The notes below the pieces were generated by a model. It did no database searches. It was not told the DNA's origin and saw nothing but the letters and a program-made list of their open reading frames with translations. This document shows positions 49,203 to 58,109 of a DNA stretch of 64,000 nucleotides, piece by piece. The translations under genes and the position numbers were made by a program. This DNA is from Arachidicoccus rhizosphaerae (GTDB lineage: Bacteria; Bacteroidota; Bacteroidia; Chitinophagales; Chitinophagaceae): NCBI RefSeq assembly GCF_900107765.1, contig NZ_FNQY01000002.1:62001-126000 (forward strand). The letters run 5' to 3'. The first letter of the stretch is position 1. Each line of letters starts with the position of its first letter.

Positions 49203-50161
49203 AAAATGATCGTTAACTCATTTATTCATAATAAAGATACACAAATGCTCTATATTTAGATACCTGGGTTTTCTTTCTTGATATACATCATGAAACGGAC
49301 TTCTTGTATTTTGTAATGGTTAGTGTTTGCGTGCCTGCAAATTTCGCTAGTTTTACCAACCATGTGTCTTGACAGTTGAGTGACGAAGTACAAATCCGGT
49401 ATCATTTTCCAGTCGACCAAATTCCTCTATACGCTTCTTGAAATGCTTATCAAGAAAATAGAGAAATGGAAGAAAAGTAAGGTTTAATGTAGCAGCAATA
49501 ACTCTACAATGGACTTTGGAGGGTGTCTTTATTTCTCTGCAAATGGTAAGCAGTTTTGATGCACAGAACATATTTCAAGTGCCTCACAACCTAACTTGCT
49601 GTGTTCTGGTGAAACAATAGGCTGTTGTTTTACATTAAATCTCCAGAACTGCAATATAGAAAGCCAGTGTACAGACAAGAAAGTAGTAAGGCCGGCCAAC
49701 TGCCCACTTCTAACTGTCCTTATTAAACCTTTTTTCGAATGTCGGTATATTCTATGTTTCGTTTCACGGGGGCAAAAGGTCAGTCTTTCGCTGAAACAAG
49801 ATTTATAACCTCTCTTTCATTGAGGGTGGCATAACGATTCATTCCTTTGATGACTCTCTGATTTTTTTTCTTTAGTGTATCCTCAATAGAACCAATAAAC
49901 AATCCGCCATTCAAAATTGATTTTAGCTTTATCGCTTTGCCAGTTTCTTGGATGAACTGAAATATTAACGATTCGGCAATTGTTTTGAAGTTGTAACATA
50001 GCATTTCATTTTTTTTGTTATCGAATACTAGAAATGCCAGAGATTGAAAAGAGAAAAAGGCTTTAACTTGTTGAAATTAAAGCCTTTGTGAAGTGACCCG
50101 GATTGAATCAATATCTCCGTTATAATTTAACAATTTGAGTCGTAAGGCGAGGCGGGAAGGA
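49203..50161. other. Apparently decayed DNA up to the prophage edge
   Basis: About 960 AT-rich bases. Two short minus-strand frames (49353-49571 and 49780-50004) have no recognisable domain and lack convincing starts; they may be remnants of mobile or accessory genes. A terminator hairpin at 50056-50087 marks the right edge of this stretch. Confidence 0.4.
50056..50087 (-). terminator. Rho-independent terminator of the leftward prophage operon
   Basis: AAAGGCTTTAA and TTAAAGCCTTT form an 11-bp stem around a 10-base loop, with five T residues after the stem on the minus strand. It lies 75 bases after the stop of the 50162 gene and probably near the prophage boundary. Confidence 0.75.
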
Positions 50162-50431
50162 CTATTCTTTATAGTTATTTATGTCTTCTTCTATTTGTTT
50201 TTTCAGATCGTCGGGCATCGGATCTGACACTAATTTCCCGGGAAGTTCGCCGTTTGGACTAAATTCATATCTCACATTATACTTTTCTTTGACGCCCGGG
50301 TATTTGTCCAATATTTTATCATAAATCCCTATTGCTTTCTCTTTTGCCGAGTTCTTCATTTCGGATTTCGCTTTTTCTATAGCCTTTTCAAGGTCTCCTA
50401 AACCTGTAATTTTTGCTTTAAACATTCCCAT
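50162..50431 (-). CDS. Small helical prophage protein
   Basis: An 89-residue, highly charged protein (GLGDLEKAIEKAKSEMKNSA, KEKAIGIYDKILDKYPGVKE) predicted to be mostly helical with no membrane segment. No family recognised. It follows the 50462 gene by 30 bases on the same strand and so belongs to the leftward unit that may be expressed in the lysogen. Start at MGMFKAK, with a second ATG two codons in. Confidence 0.6.
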   Translation of the reverse strand: MGMFKAKITGLGDLEKAIEKAKSEMKNSAKEKAIGIYDKILDKYPGVKEKYNVRYEFSPNGELPGKLVSDPMPDDLKKQIEEDINNYKE

Positions 50432-50461: not shown

Positions 50462-51037
50462 TTACCAGGTGTCATCATTCTTTTTTAATTTAAAGGTTTC
50501 ATACAGGAATTTTTCAAGAGAGGTATTCTCTCTAATTGCCTTACCGGATGTTCTATAATCCATCTTCCTGTTTCGACATAATAAATCATCTAGTGTAAAG
50601 TCGCTTGATGTTGCGGCGGCCAATATACCAGGAGTGCCGGACATTGCGTCTTTAAAATCCTGCATGTCAAAATACAATCCAGTTATAGTCACCTTATACT
50701 TATCCTGCTTAGTATTAATTTTAAAATTAAACTTCATTGGGAATTTAAGGGCTGCATTCATATTCATACCCCCTAGTCCGTATTTCTTGTATGGAAAATA
50801 CATGTGAGTTATCAACCCGGTTATAATCCCGTCTGAATTCTTTACATCTTTCACAGACGACATCCCATTACAGATATCAAACAGGCGCTTTGATAAATCA
50901 TTTGCCGAGTTGCCGGGAGCGCTATAAACCGCCTCAAACAATGACACATTATCCCTAATTTCAAAATACTGATATGGGCTTTTTTGCGCATTAACAATTA
51001 ATGGAATAAGAAATAAAAAGAATAATATTTTTCTCAT
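50462..51037 (-). CDS. Secreted prophage protein (putative DUF4468-like)
   Basis: A 191-residue protein with a clear signal peptide (MRKILFFLFLIPLIVNAQ) and no membrane helix after it. The mature part has SLFEAVYSAPGNSANDLSKR and KFPMKFNFKINTKQDKYKVT then ITGLYFDM, a beta-alpha-beta pattern that resembles DUF4468 domains common in Bacteroidota envelope proteins. An exported protein encoded on the leftward side of a prophage repressor region is a candidate lysogenic conversion (moron) gene. Function unknown. Confidence 0.6.
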   Translation of the reverse strand: MRKILFFLFLIPLIVNAQKSPYQYFEIRDNVSLFEAVYSAPGNSANDLSKRLFDICNGMSSVKDVKNSDGIITGLITHMYFPYKKYGLGGMNMNAALKFPMKFNFKINTKQDKYKVTITGLYFDMQDFKDAMSGTPGILAAATSSDFTLDDLLCRNRKMDYRTSGKAIRENTSLEKFLYETFKLKKNDDTW

Positions 51038-51160: not shown

Positions 51161-51529
51161 CTATTTCTTCATATTGTCTATCTGCGCAATACGGCTCAAT
51201 AATGCTTCTTTTTCATCAGAATAAAAAGTCCCCTTCATAGAGGATTTTATTTCGGCTATTTCGTTTAAAATGAACCCAATAACAACGTCTTTGGTGTCCA
51301 TTGACTTTATTGCTTCTTTCCCCTCAAGCATTTCCCCCTCGCCCTTGATAAGCCAATCCATATTGAGTTCCGGAAATTCATTTTGTATTTTCGCTTGAGT
51401 TTTGGCGGTCATATTGTCGCCTAATTTATTGACATATCCCCTGGATAGGCCGCATTTTTTCTCGAATTTATCTTGACCATAAGGCAAAGATTCGATAAAC
51501 TCTAAAATCCTTGATTTTATATTTTCCAT
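51161..51529 (-). CDS. CI-like phage repressor with N-terminal HTH
   Basis: A 122-residue DNA-binding protein. The HTH covers about residues 5-50, with recognition helix around CGLSRGYVNKLGDN. FPELNMDWLIKGEGEMLEGK matches the linker typical of Bacteroidota CI-like repressors, followed by a short coiled-coil C-terminus (IGFILNEIAEIKSSMKG). There is no S24 peptidase domain, so induction would not be by RecA-driven self-cleavage. The ATG is only 4 bases from an 18-bp operator-like palindrome (51534-51551), which also overlaps the opposing promoter. It is probably the lysogeny repressor and autoregulates. Confidence 0.8.
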   Translation of the reverse strand: MENIKSRILEFIESLPYGQDKFEKKCGLSRGYVNKLGDNMTAKTQAKIQNEFPELNMDWLIKGEGEMLEGKEAIKSMDTKDVVIGFILNEIAEIKSSMKGTFYSDEKEALLSRIAQIDNMKK

Positions 51530-51533
51530 TTTT

Positions 51534-51551
51534 TACGGGATATATCCCTTA
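51534..51551. promoter_or_regulatory. Operator-like palindrome 1 of the prophage switch
   Basis: TACGGGATATATCCCTTA is near-palindromic and almost identical to 52524-52541. Its last two bases are the first two of a plus-strand -7 box, TATTTTTG at 51550-51557, 16 bases before the 51573 gene. It begins 5 bases before the repressor start codon. Binding there could block both transcripts. Confidence 0.65.
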
Positions 51552-51557
51552 TTTTTG
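51550..51557 (+). promoter_or_regulatory. -7 promoter box overlapping operator 1
   Basis: TATTTTTG matches TAnnTTTG. It reads rightward toward the 50-residue membrane protein gene at 51573. Confidence 0.55.
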
Positions 51558-51572
51558 TTGAAAATTTATTTT

Positions 51573-51725
51573 ATGTTCAGATTGATTAAATGGTTTTCCA
51601 AAAAATATGATACACTTAGTAAATCAGAAGCGTTTTGGATGGGGTGGTATACAGCCTCGGTATTTATTGTTATCCTAACAACCATCCTATATTTATTGCA
51701 CCACTTTCTGCCTCCAAAATATTAG
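51573..51725 (+). CDS. Small single-pass membrane protein (50 residues) at the lysogeny switch
   Basis: A 50-codon gene starting at ATG 51573. The protein begins with a basic amphipathic part (MFRLIKWFSKKYDTLSKSEA), then a transmembrane segment (YTASVFIVILTTILYLLHHF). The basic end is probably cytoplasmic. Support comes from its own -7 box and operator directly upstream, and from the clean hydrophobic pattern. It is divergent from the repressor gene and its end overlaps, by 4 bases, the end of the minus-strand frameshift extension of the 51838 gene. Family unknown. Confidence 0.6.
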   Translation: MFRLIKWFSKKYDTLSKSEAFWMGWYTASVFIVILTTILYLLHHFLPPKY

Positions 51726-51843
51726 ATCCATCCCATTTTTTTTGTTATGTACGCTACGATTAAAAGCGAGAGAATCCCTAATACCCATTTTGTAAGTTCG
51801 TGATCCCATAACTTCCCCCAAAAAGATTTAGGCTTATCTAATC
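51722..51843 (-). CDS. -1 frame extension with transmembrane tail of the 51838 gene
   Basis: In the -1 frame the 51838 gene continues past its stop for 40 codons, ending with a TAA at 51722-51724. The extension has DKPKSFWGKLWDHELTKW then VLGILSLLIVAYITKKMG: a Lys/Trp-rich linker and one membrane helix. It has no start codon of its own except a late ATG. A ribosome slipping -1 at the A_AAA_AAC heptamer (51844-51850) would join it to the upstream protein. A single-base deletion or a sequencing slip in the eight-A run is the alternative. Confidence 0.5.
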
Positions 51844-52455
51844 GTTTTTTTTAGAATTATCCTGGTTAATATCTCCTTTAACGTCGCCCTCTGTATATAT
51901 AGTAGGGCCTTCAAACTTGTTATGTCTGCTCATGTCTATATTTATTTGATTGGATGAAAAACTATTGTTGTTAAGCGCAATATGCCCCTTGTCGGATATC
52001 TCATAAATTTCGCTAACCTTATTAAGCGTAATGGGCTTAATAAGGTCGTTTCCTTTTAATAATTTTATTATTTTTCGCAACCTAAAATATGGGTATCTCA
52101 TATCTGCAACAGATACGGATATCCTATCGTTATTGTCTTGCATTTTACTCAATATCGACATCAACTCTTCCTGCTCAATTTTCTTACTATATTCTTGTTC
52201 AGAAAATCCGCCATTATCTAAAAACGATTGAACATCTTCCCTGTCCGGTTTCAGTGATATAATTTTTCCGCCAAAAGTTGAATCTAAAATATACCAATCT
52301 TTTTCCTTTTGGATTGCCACTGCTGCATCCCAAATTTCAGTTTTGGGAACATTGAGAACCTCCGACATCTTAACATCGGTATTGATACCGGCTATGCTGA
52401 GCTTTAGAACCCTATCCCTTAAGTCCTCAAGCTTGTTAATTTCAATGTTATTCAT
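51838..52455 (-). CDS. Prophage regulator-like protein with winged-helix features
   Basis: A 205-residue protein (0-frame product). The N-terminal half has helix-turn-helix-like segments (DVKMSEVLNVPKTEIWDAAV and, later, YFRLRKIIKLLKGNDLIKPI), which resemble winged-helix domains. The C-terminus EGPTIYTEGDVKGDINQDNS is a beta-type linker and then KKND. Translation may slip into the -1 frame at the end and add a membrane helix. It lies on the minus strand between the repressor region and the rightward promoter. The role is unknown; regulator or membrane-tethered effector are both possible. Confidence 0.6.
   Translation of the reverse strand: MNNIEINKLEDLRDRVLKLSIAGINTDVKMSEVLNVPKTEIWDAAVAIQKEKDWYILDSTFGGKIISLKPDREDVQSFLDNGGFSEQEYSKKIEQEELMSILSKMQDNNDRISVSVADMRYPYFRLRKIIKLLKGNDLIKPITLNKVSEIYEISDKGHIALNNNSFSSNQINIDMSRHNKFEGPTIYTEGDVKGDINQDNSKKND
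51844..51850 (-). other. Canonical -1 frameshift slippery heptamer A_AAA_AAC
   Basis: On the minus strand the 0-frame codons read TCT AAA AAA AAC GAT TAG, so the heptamer A_AAA_AAC lies two codons before the stop within a run of eight A. It fits the X_XXY_YYZ rule for tandem tRNA slippage. Confidence 0.5.
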
Positions 52456-52523
52456 CTTTAAATCAATTAGTTATAAATAGTTGCAACGTTGTTGTGAAAA
52501 TATACCGTATTTTTATTTTAATT

Positions 52524-52541
52524 TACGGTATATATCCCGTA
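52524..52541. promoter_or_regulatory. Operator-like palindrome 2 of the prophage switch
   Basis: TACGGTATATATCCCGTA differs from operator 1 (51534-51551) at only two positions and is close to a perfect palindrome. An inverted half-site, TATACCGTAT, lies upstream at 52501-52510. Its last two bases are the first two of the -7 box TATCTTTG at 52540-52547, the same geometry as operator 1. Confidence 0.65.
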
Positions 52542-52547
52542 TCTTTG
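52540..52547 (+). promoter_or_regulatory. -7 box of the main rightward prophage promoter
   Basis: TATCTTTG matches TAnnTTTG, 27 bases before the ATG at 52575. It would start the early transcript that carries the HTH, recombination and replication genes. Confidence 0.6.
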
Positions 52548-52574: not shown

Positions 52575-52799
52575 ATGCTAGAAACAATAAATAAGCCAAA
52601 AACGAAGAAATCAAGAAAGAGCGTGCCTCTTACTGATACCCAGCTGGCGAAATTAAGAACATTCGTTATCAGGTACTCTACTCAAACAGAAGCGGCTTTA
52701 ATGCTAGGAGTGGACAGAAATGTATTGAACAGGGTTTTGGCCTACGGATCTGGACACGAGACATCTATTAAAACGATTCTTAAAAACCTACCATCATGA
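52575..52799 (+). CDS. Small HTH protein, first gene of the rightward early operon
   Basis: A 74-residue basic protein from the ATG at 52575; an upstream in-frame start at 52494 lies before the promoter and is rejected. The core YSTQTEAALMLGVDRNVLNR is a helix-turn-helix, and the N-terminus is lysine-rich (KPKTKKSRKSV). Its stop overlaps the next start (ATGA at 52796-52799), so the two are coupled. Position at the head of the early operon and size suggest a Cro-like or activator role. Confidence 0.72.
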   Translation: MLETINKPKTKKSRKSVPLTDTQLAKLRTFVIRYSTQTEAALMLGVDRNVLNRVLAYGSGHETSIKTILKNLPS

Positions 52800-54056: not shown

Positions 54057-54953
54057 ATGTCAAACGAAAACAGACAATTAACGACAAAATCGCTCTTTGA
54101 AAGAGTGGACGTCAAGCAGAAATTCAAGGATTTATTAGGCAATCGTGCCAGTTCATTCATGACAAGCGTTTTACAGATTACGGCTCAAAATTCACTACTT
54201 GCAAAAGCCGATCCAATGAGCGTTTATCAGAGTGCAGCCGTTGCGGCTACTTTAGATCTTCCTTTGAATCAGAACTTAGGATTTGCTTATATTTTGGCCT
54301 ATAACACCAAGCAGCCAGACGGTTCATACAAGGTTGTTGCTCAGTTTCAAATGGGTTATAAGGGATTCATCCAGTTAGCACAGAGAAGCGGACAGTTTAA
54401 GACCATATCCGCTGCCCCAATATATGAAGGCCAGCTGGTGGAACAAAATCCCCTTACAGGTTTCTTATTTGATTTCACAGCGAAAACATCAGATAAAATA
54501 ATCGGTTATGCCGCTCACTTCGCCCTTTTAAACGGTTTTGAGAAAACCTTATACATGACTGTAGAGGAGCTGCAAAAGCATGGAATGAGATTCAGCCAGA
54601 CGCTCAAAAAGGGTTACGGCCTATGGAAAGATGATTTCGATTCAATGGCTCAAAAGACAGTTTTAAAATTACTCCTTTCCAAGTTTGCGCCGCTTTCTAT
54701 TGAGATGCAAAAGGCGGTTATCACAGACCAGTCAGTAGTAAATGACGCAGACACGGAGGATGTCACCTATGTTGATAATGACACTGTTACAATCGACAAG
54801 GAAGCAGAAAGAATCAGATTGTTAATCGAAGATGCCAAAACAATTGAGGACCTGGATAATGTTTTTGAGTTCGTTTCCGACGATCAAATGGATCTATTCC
54901 TGAGTAAGAAAGAGGAATTATCAAAGTTGTTAACTAACAAAAAATCAAAATAA
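54057..54953 (+). CDS. recT: RecT-type single-strand annealing recombinase
   Basis: A 298-residue phage recombinase that coats single-stranded DNA and anneals complementary strands. The family core is visible: SFMTSVLQITAQNSLLAKAD, SAAVAATLDLPLNQNLGFAY and FQMGYKGFIQLAQRSGQFKT. Its stop overlaps the start of the next gene (TAATG), which encodes a nuclease that would supply the 5-prime-resected substrate. Together they form a RecE/RecT-like or lambda Exo/Bet-like module. Confidence 0.95.
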   Translation: MSNENRQLTTKSLFERVDVKQKFKDLLGNRASSFMTSVLQITAQNSLLAKADPMSVYQSAAVAATLDLPLNQNLGFAYILAYNTKQPDGSYKVVAQFQMGYKGFIQLAQRSGQFKTISAAPIYEGQLVEQNPLTGFLFDFTAKTSDKIIGYAAHFALLNGFEKTLYMTVEELQKHGMRFSQTLKKGYGLWKDDFDSMAQKTVLKLLLSKFAPLSIEMQKAVITDQSVVNDADTEDVTYVDNDTVTIDKEAERIRLLIEDAKTIEDLDNVFEFVSDDQMDLFLSKKEELSKLLTNKKSK

Positions 54954-57167: not shown

Positions 57168-57342
57168 TTTAAAAATAATGATTGGTCTGGCTTGTATTAT
57201 AGCTGACATGTTCGCTACAAACTTCCTGACTTCATTAGTTACTTACCCGTCGGACATAACGGTCATTTTGGGGATTATAGGGCTTGCGGCTCTTATTTTA
57301 ATAAATATTTTTTTAATCAAACTTTTAACAAAAACAAAATGA
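57157..57342 (+). CDS. Small two-helix membrane protein
   Basis: A 61-residue membrane protein with two predicted helices (IMIGLACIIADMFATNFLTS and ITVILGIIGLAALILINIFL). Its stop overlaps the next start by 4 bases, so it is coupled to the SPFH lipoprotein. The order suggests that they work together in the inner membrane. Confidence 0.7.
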   Translation: MKISLKIMIGLACIIADMFATNFLTSLVTYPSDITVILGIIGLAALILINIFLIKLLTKTK

Positions 57343-58109
57343 GAAAGACAATTTTCACATTGATTGCGGCTATTGCGCTGCTTGCATCATGCACCCGAAT
57401 TGATGCCGGGTATGAAGGGATTTTAGTAAACCAGTATGGTACAGAGAAAGGGGTGTCAAATGTTCAGATCAAAACGGGTCGTGTGTGGTATAATCCATTC
57501 ACTCAGGACGTGGTAGAATTCCCTTTGTTCGTAAAAACGATTGATTATTCAGCGTTTACCGTGAACGCCAAAGACGGATCTGTTTTCACTATCGATCCTA
57601 CACTCAGCTATGCCGTTGTTCAGGGGAAAGCTCCTTTCATCTATGTAAAGTACAGAAAGGACTTAGACGAGATTACAACTACAACAATGTTCAACTACGT
57701 GAAAAACGCCTTTAGAATCCAGATGAACAAGTACACCACAGAGCAATTAATAAGCAATAGGCAGCAATTTGAGGACAGTGTAGAGGCAAACTTAGGAAAA
57801 ACGCTAGAATCAGATGGGTTCAGACTTGAATCCCTCACATCTGGGCTACAATATCCAAAATCTATTGTCGAGGCGGTGGATGCAAAAAACAGAGCGGTTC
57901 AGGAATCCATGCAGGCGCAAAACCAACTAGTCAGGGATTCCATCAATGCCAGAAGGGAGGTGATTGTGGCGGAAGGAGAAAGACAGGCAAACCTACTCAG
58001 GCAATCATCCCTTACAAACCTGCTCATACAACAACAGTTTATTGAGAAATGGGACGGGAGGACGCCTTTATATGGAAACAGCCCGGTAGTATTCAAGAAC
58101 GTTCAATAA
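57339..58109 (+). CDS. SPFH/band-7 domain lipoprotein encoded by the prophage
   Basis: A 256-residue protein with a signal peptide and lipobox (ALLASC, lipid-modified Cys18) and a prohibitin/stomatin-like SPFH domain (YEGILVNQYGTEKGVSNVQI, VFTIDPTLSYAVVQGKAPFI, SDGFRLESLTSGLQYPKSIV). The long C-terminal helix (VDAKNRAVQESMQAQNQLVR, VIVAEGERQANLL) is the oligomerisation coil. SPFH proteins form rings or scaffolds on membranes and in bacteria have been tied to FtsH regulation and phage-related roles. A copy in a phage early region, coupled to a small membrane protein, is notable. Whether it acts in DNA replication, lysis or exclusion is unknown. Confidence 0.82.
   Translation: MRKTIFTLIAAIALLASCTRIDAGYEGILVNQYGTEKGVSNVQIKTGRVWYNPFTQDVVEFPLFVKTIDYSAFTVNAKDGSVFTIDPTLSYAVVQGKAPFIYVKYRKDLDEITTTTMFNYVKNAFRIQMNKYTTEQLISNRQQFEDSVEANLGKTLESDGFRLESLTSGLQYPKSIVEAVDAKNRAVQESMQAQNQLVRDSINARREVIVAEGERQANLLRQSSLTNLLIQQQFIEKWDGRTPLYGNSPVVFKNVQ

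Follow-up and report, generated by a model that had tools for sequence, protein, structure and literature searches.

Predicted operators of a CI-like repressor at two divergent promoter pairs in a prophage of Arachidicoccus rhizosphaerae

Genes of the prophage and its switch region

The window analysed here is a stretch of 64,000 nucleotides of the Arachidicoccus rhizosphaerae genome (C28:62001-126000, on a single contig), and it includes the left end of a prophage, marked by the attL core GTGACCCGGATTG (Table 1). The same core recurs where a tRNA-Arg(tct) gene adjoining a tyrosine integrase has its 3' end (window-equivalent positions 93869-93881), giving a prophage that spans positions 50093 to about 93881 (43.8 kb). 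An IMG/VR record of the same phage was identical in all 12,335 bases compared, and since it is a copy of the window phage it was not counted as an independent observation.

The product of the leftward repressor gene showed a weak match to transcriptional regulators in PHROG (phrog_8, E 2e-4) and no match in a Pfam search. In an AlphaFold model based on eight aligned relatives, the blocks making up the first 70 residues had mean pLDDT values of 83-93 and were followed by two low-confidence helices. The best PDB matches of this model were the DNA-binding domains of 434 repressor, 434 Cro and P22 c2, with Foldseek probabilities up to 0.99, yet E-values above 0.1. Together, the phrog_8 match and the model indicate a lambdoid helix-turn-helix DNA-binding fold. 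A C-terminal S24 peptidase domain, as expected of a lambda-like self-cleaving repressor, was not found by the Pfam search; this domain is present in the relatives of the repressor encoded by Bacteroides phage BS-TP2 and by a prophage in a genome from another family of the same class (G757). Since the window repressor lacks the self-cleavage domain, the prophage is probably induced by a route other than classical RecA-stimulated cleavage. Two further leftward genes lie downstream of the repressor gene at the left end of the prophage, encoding a 191-aa protein with a signal-peptide-like start (50462-51037; phrog_4002, E 8e-4) and an 89-aa protein (50162-50431), and both are possible lysogenic-conversion genes.

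To the right of the repressor gene follow a tiny rightward ORF, a leftward gene of 205 codons and a rightward operon (Table 1), which we regard as the main early operon since it includes the gene of a RecT-family annealing protein. No relatives of the 205-aa protein were found outside its own phage, and its AlphaFold model had a pLDDT of 39. A PADLOC search with the small ORFs and leftward genes gave no match, and neither did Rfam. The reading frame of the 205-aa gene stops directly after an A8 run (A AAA AAC heptamer), leaving a product without a TM segment. The -1 frame opens exactly at this run, and its 40-residue tail includes a TM segment similar to the one at the C-terminus of the corresponding products in C29, the second prophage region of this genome, and in genome G257. 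Either programmed slippage or a frameshift mutation may be involved. Upstream of the leftward gene, a 24-bp block (consensus CAATTAGTTrTAAATAGTTGCAAC) is found at 52464-52487 and at L020:4607-4630 in the second prophage, and nowhere else in the genome. Other sampled genomes of the family held matches with three mismatches at best, and among 23 matches in viral contigs the relevant one was the phage itself, the others lying in unrelated contexts. Possibly, this block is the site of a second regulator.

Two additional features were observed in this part of the prophage. Within the 205-aa gene, a 12-pair inverted repeat with a T-rich tail lies at 52016-52046 of the plus strand, where a short transcript started at the O1 promoter could terminate ahead of O2; this terminator-like repeat was absent from the other phages compared. 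The early region also contains two similar lipoprotein-like genes (57339-58109 and window-equivalent 64291-65166), both with SCTRIDAGYEGILVNQYG, which are likely the result of a duplication.

Table 1. Features of the prophage left end and the switch region, in window coordinates
Feature	Position	Strand	Remark
attL core GTGACCCGGATTG	50093..50105	+	13 bp; prophage left end
Repressor, 122 aa	51161..51529	-	CI-like N-terminal helix-turn-helix, short helical C-terminus, without S24 peptidase domain
O1 operator (predicted) TACGGGATATATCCCTTA	51534..51551	+	Between repressor gene and tiny membrane-protein gene
-7 box TATTTTTG	51550..51557	+	Rightward promoter toward tiny ORF; TA common with O1
Candidate leftward -7 box TAAATTTT	51561..51568	-	Repressor gene; 1 mismatch, weak consensus match
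50-aa protein	51573..51725	+	ORF facing O1; one predicted TM segment
-1-frame continuation RLDKPKSFWGKLWDHELTKWVLGILSLLIVAYITKKMGWI	51728..51852	-	TM tail; A8 run 51845-51852 at 3' end of 205-aa gene
205-aa leftward gene	51838..52455	-	Weak winged-helix match
24-bp block CAATTAGTTATAAATAGTTGCAAC	52464..52487	-	Upstream of leftward gene; in second prophage with one base different
O3 degenerate site, leftward sense TACGGTATATTTTCACAA	52492..52509	-	Includes half-site ATATACCGTA; centre 32 bp from O2
Candidate leftward -7 box TATATTTT	52497..52504	-	Overlaps O3; 1 mismatch, weak consensus match
O2 operator (predicted) TACGGTATATATCCCGTA	52524..52541	+	
-7 box TATCTTTG	52540..52547	+	Early-operon promoter; TA common with O2
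First early-operon gene, 74 aa	52575..52799	+	Weak HTH match
Second early gene, 72 aa	52796..53014	+	Excisionase/HTH-like
RecT-family annealing protein	54057..54953	+	

Two palindromes at -7 boxes and a third site

An earlier note on this DNA had pointed to two near-identical 18-bp palindromes as likely repressor operators. Its observations hold to the base: the two 18-mers, here called O1 and O2, lie where it had placed them and differ at two positions, the last two bases of each are the first two of TATTTTTG and TATCTTTG, respectively, and O1 begins 5 bases before the ATG of the repressor gene (A at 51529, minus strand). Each palindrome is one change away from a perfect 18-bp palindrome, and its final two bases, TA, open a TAnnTTTG box, the -7 part of the Bacteroidota -33/-7 promoter consensus TTTG/TAnnTTTG (PMC10620806). 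No -33 element was evident at the window promoters, which were assigned by consensus alone.

The ideal site TACGGGATATATCCCGTA had two matches with up to three mismatches in the window, compared to 0.02 expected, and under the same threshold the whole 4.87-Mb genome contained O1 and O2 only, compared to five matches of a reversed control pattern. Moreover, among the 66 TAnnTTTG boxes in the window, a palindrome with at least 8 of 9 pairs precedes just the boxes at O1 and O2 (mean of shuffles, 0.01). The search for further copies that the earlier note had suggested yielded no more strong ones in the remaining prophage or genome. The palindromes are thus unique to the prophage, and they overlap the lytic and repressor promoters as placed by consensus.

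The same note had recorded an inverted half-site, ATATACCGTA, at 52501-52510, which is indeed present and constitutes the better half of a degenerate third site, O3, with mismatches at 6 of 18 positions. A match of this quality at a spacing of +29 to +33 is expected at 0.13% of positions, and in the equivalent chance test for three of the loci described below (G757, L100 and BS-TP2) no position matched as well. The leftward gene between the operators also faces O3.

Operators and repressors at other loci

Related repressors at other loci were compared for the sequence and geometry of their operators. The repressor of G757 is 48% identical to the window repressor over residues 3-75, and of its two predicted operators, TACGGAATATACTCCGTA lies 43 bases upstream of the repressor start and TACGGTATATATTCCGTA another 836 bp away, each sitting on a leftward TAnnTTTG box. 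A strict pattern of operator plus box occurred in 2 of 2.9 million viral contigs, namely the window phage and the G757 prophage, and in 2 of 395 sampled genomes of the class, each time beside a repressor of the window or G757 type. Locus L100 encodes a repressor whose DNA-binding domain is almost that of G757; it carries TACTGAATATATTCCGTA, nearly identical to the window operator, at the repressor, and at -792/-762 a further two sites with a spacing of 30 bp, O2 being offset by one base from its own box.

The second prophage region of the window genome (C29; locus L020, G000:C29:1-7000) has similar early genes and a repressor that is 25% identical to the window repressor overall, the N-termini being unlike and the C-termini alike. 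Its predicted operators, TACAGCATTACTGCA and TACCGCAATACTGTA, differ in sequence from those of the window and overlap their boxes in a similar manner. Over residues 1-77, the G257 repressor shares 40% identity with the C29 repressor, and its predicted operators are ATACAGTAATACTGAAT and ATACAGTATTACTGAAT. Since the boxes of G257 are imperfect, our first scan, based on -7 boxes, missed this locus, and ATACAGTAATACTGAAT was found by a three-site scan needing no -7 box. A third type of predicted operator, with TACACA half-sites, was found in BS-TP2 and in the uncultivated viral genome (UViG) L096. In the scan based on -7 boxes, the operator pair stood clearly above all shuffles in the window, L020, L072, BS-TP2 and L096. 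The box-free scan selected other, weaker trios in L020 and L096 than the box-based scan, and its candidates in L024, L005, L102 and L104 were barely above shuffles and were treated as noise. The operator-type site was absent from L005, which has the repressor closest by identity in the DNA-binding part (53%), and the doubled layout was not seen in most of the approximately 50 other repressor loci scanned. Taken together, the comparison across G757, L100, C29, G257, BS-TP2 and L096 indicates that operator sequence tracks the DNA-binding domain of the repressor while the geometry stays, and this co-conservation supports the assignment of O1 and O2 to the repressor at 51161, as the earlier note had suspected.

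Each of the seven loci has two divergent pairs, one made up of the repressor and O1 and the other of O3 and O2, and the distance between the pairs is 616-990 bp in six loci and 831 bp in G257. The centres of O2 and O3 are 32 bp apart in the window, BS-TP2 and L096, 31 bp in G757 and G257, 30 bp in L100 and 29 bp in C29, where the third site is a half-site only. Since 29-32 bp corresponds to approximately three turns of B-DNA, two dimers would sit on the same face of the helix. The general order is repressor, O1 and a small, usually membrane-type ORF, followed by the leftward gene, O3-O2 and the early operon. The two rightward promoters and the departure from the lambda layout that had been remarked upon for the window are real features, and they recur in other loci.

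The small ORF rightward of O1 encodes 50 aa in the window, 35 in C29, 61 in G757, 32 in L100 and 54 in G257, where a second ORF of 49 aa follows; BS-TP2 and L096 do not fit this pattern. The products are strongly hydrophobic in the window, C29, G757 and L100 (L100 and G257 were judged by eye), and at random positions a hydrophobic ORF (30-70 aa, start no more than 90 bases away) was found in approximately 4% of cases (932 of 22,000). TM segments were likewise predicted for the product of the gene leftward from O3 in C29, G757 and BS-TP2, and recognized by eye in L100 and G257.

A model of the switch and its place among known systems

We consider that the CI-like repressor of the 43.8-kb prophage (51161-51529) acts through O1, O2 and O3 as its operators, a reading to which we assign a probability of nearly 0.9. 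The comparative sequence evidence strongly supports interpreting the palindromes as operators. The sites and boxes, their spacings, the uniqueness within the genome and the co-conservation across related repressors were observed directly; binding, cooperativity, looping between O1 and O2/O3, the transcription starts, autorepression and the mode of induction are inferred. According to the model, a dimer on O1 would have two effects: it would cover the -7 box of the promoter reading rightward into the tiny membrane-protein gene, and it would damp repressor synthesis from its place in the gap before the repressor's start codon. A dimer on O2 would cover the -7 box of the early operon. O3 is approximately three helical turns from O2, so that another dimer bound there would sit on the same side of the DNA, cooperate with the one on O2 and control the divergent leftward gene. 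In the lysogen both divergent promoter pairs would be held off, and loss of the repressor would open the early operon and the small ORF jointly.

It is improbable that the CI-like repressor acts at other sites and that the palindromes are bound instead by another regulator, namely a Cro-like early protein (the 74-aa HTH protein encoded at 52575) or the 205-aa protein. Both proteins have weak matches, to HTH and winged-helix domains, and in lambda Cro and CI use common operators, which makes a dual use plausible. However, in G757 and L100 the operator tracks the DNA-binding domain of the repressor while the leftward gene there encodes an unrelated protein with two TM segments, and for the 205-aa protein no relative was found elsewhere. 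It is very unlikely that the palindromes work at the RNA level, as hairpins or terminators, and not as protein sites; the sequence at 52524-52541 and both G757 operators did score as terminator-like in a terminator scan, but the palindromes lie upstream of the -7 boxes and share bases with them, so that they would be absent from the rightward transcripts, and moreover the half-site sequence varies with the repressor and O3 keeps its fixed three-turn distance. Finally, that the prophage borrowed host SOS boxes is hardly credible: the palindromes do sit at divergent regulator promoters, and LexA-like repressors linked to phage repressors occur in Bacteroidetes (PMC8565304), but the sequence differs from the published LexA-like SOS motifs of this group (CTAA-N5-TTAG and GGA-N5-TCC), and a host regulon needs copies outside the prophage, of which the host genome has none.

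As an operator system of a CI-like repressor, the locus resembles OR/OL of lambda (and those of P22 and 434) in the CI-type DNA-binding fold, the short palindromic operators overlapping promoters, the divergent orientation of repressor gene and lytic-side gene, adjacent operators that would suit cooperative binding, and a distant second cluster. In contrast to lambda, the window has a single operator at the repressor and a pair approximately 1 kb away at the second divergent promoters, a repressor without S24, Bacteroidota -7 boxes and a tiny membrane ORF in the place of cro; no cro-type HTH gene is directly divergent from the repressor, the HTH gene lying approximately 1 kb away at O2. The CI-MOR switches of TP901-1 and phi13 likewise combine few operators (OL, OR, OD) with a divergent small gene beside cI, and TP901-1 CI has been contrasted with the potentially self-cleaving phi13 CI (PMC8516035). 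A small ORF divergent from the repressor is present in the window too; its product is a predicted membrane protein with no shown relation to MOR. Furthermore, no composite CI-MOR operator is known for the window, and host phylum and promoters are different.

We also considered the TF-smORF antirepressor modules, in which homologue-less small proteins are encoded near regulator genes in polylysogens, in a study that took in self-cleaving repressors only (PMC10432266). Like the CI-MOR switch, such modules agree with some of what is observed, but they fail on gene orientation, since their TF gene is divergent from the smORF whereas the leftward gene of the window is convergent with the tiny ORF. 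In Bacteroides, the CI-like repressor RepC governs the Mu-like temperate Hankyphage, a transposable phage with a genome plan unlike that of the window phage, and the part of the paper considered here describes no phage operator sites (PMC12135933). Our literature search, covering open-licence papers, found no published operator map for a temperate phage of Bacteroidota.

Phage repressors with several operators are classical. The novelty is thus the recurring layout of two pairs and three sites and its contents. Tentatively, and with considerable doubt, one may suggest that temperate phages of Bacteroidota possess a distinct class of switch with three operators at two divergent pairs 0.6-1 kb apart, probably looped by the repressor, in which the decision or induction circuit includes the tiny membrane protein as well as a second regulator that is encoded leftward and often anchored in the membrane, and in which operator sequence and specificity are swapped while the layout is constant. 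Operator sequences are now proposed for seven repressor loci in three specificity groups, and the rule of spacing and layout can locate operators in other loci. With no S24 domain in the repressor and a small membrane ORF conserved in position, the question arises of how such prophages are induced. In addition, the two prophages of one genome, which have the same predicted switch with different operators, constitute a natural pair for tests of immunity groups.
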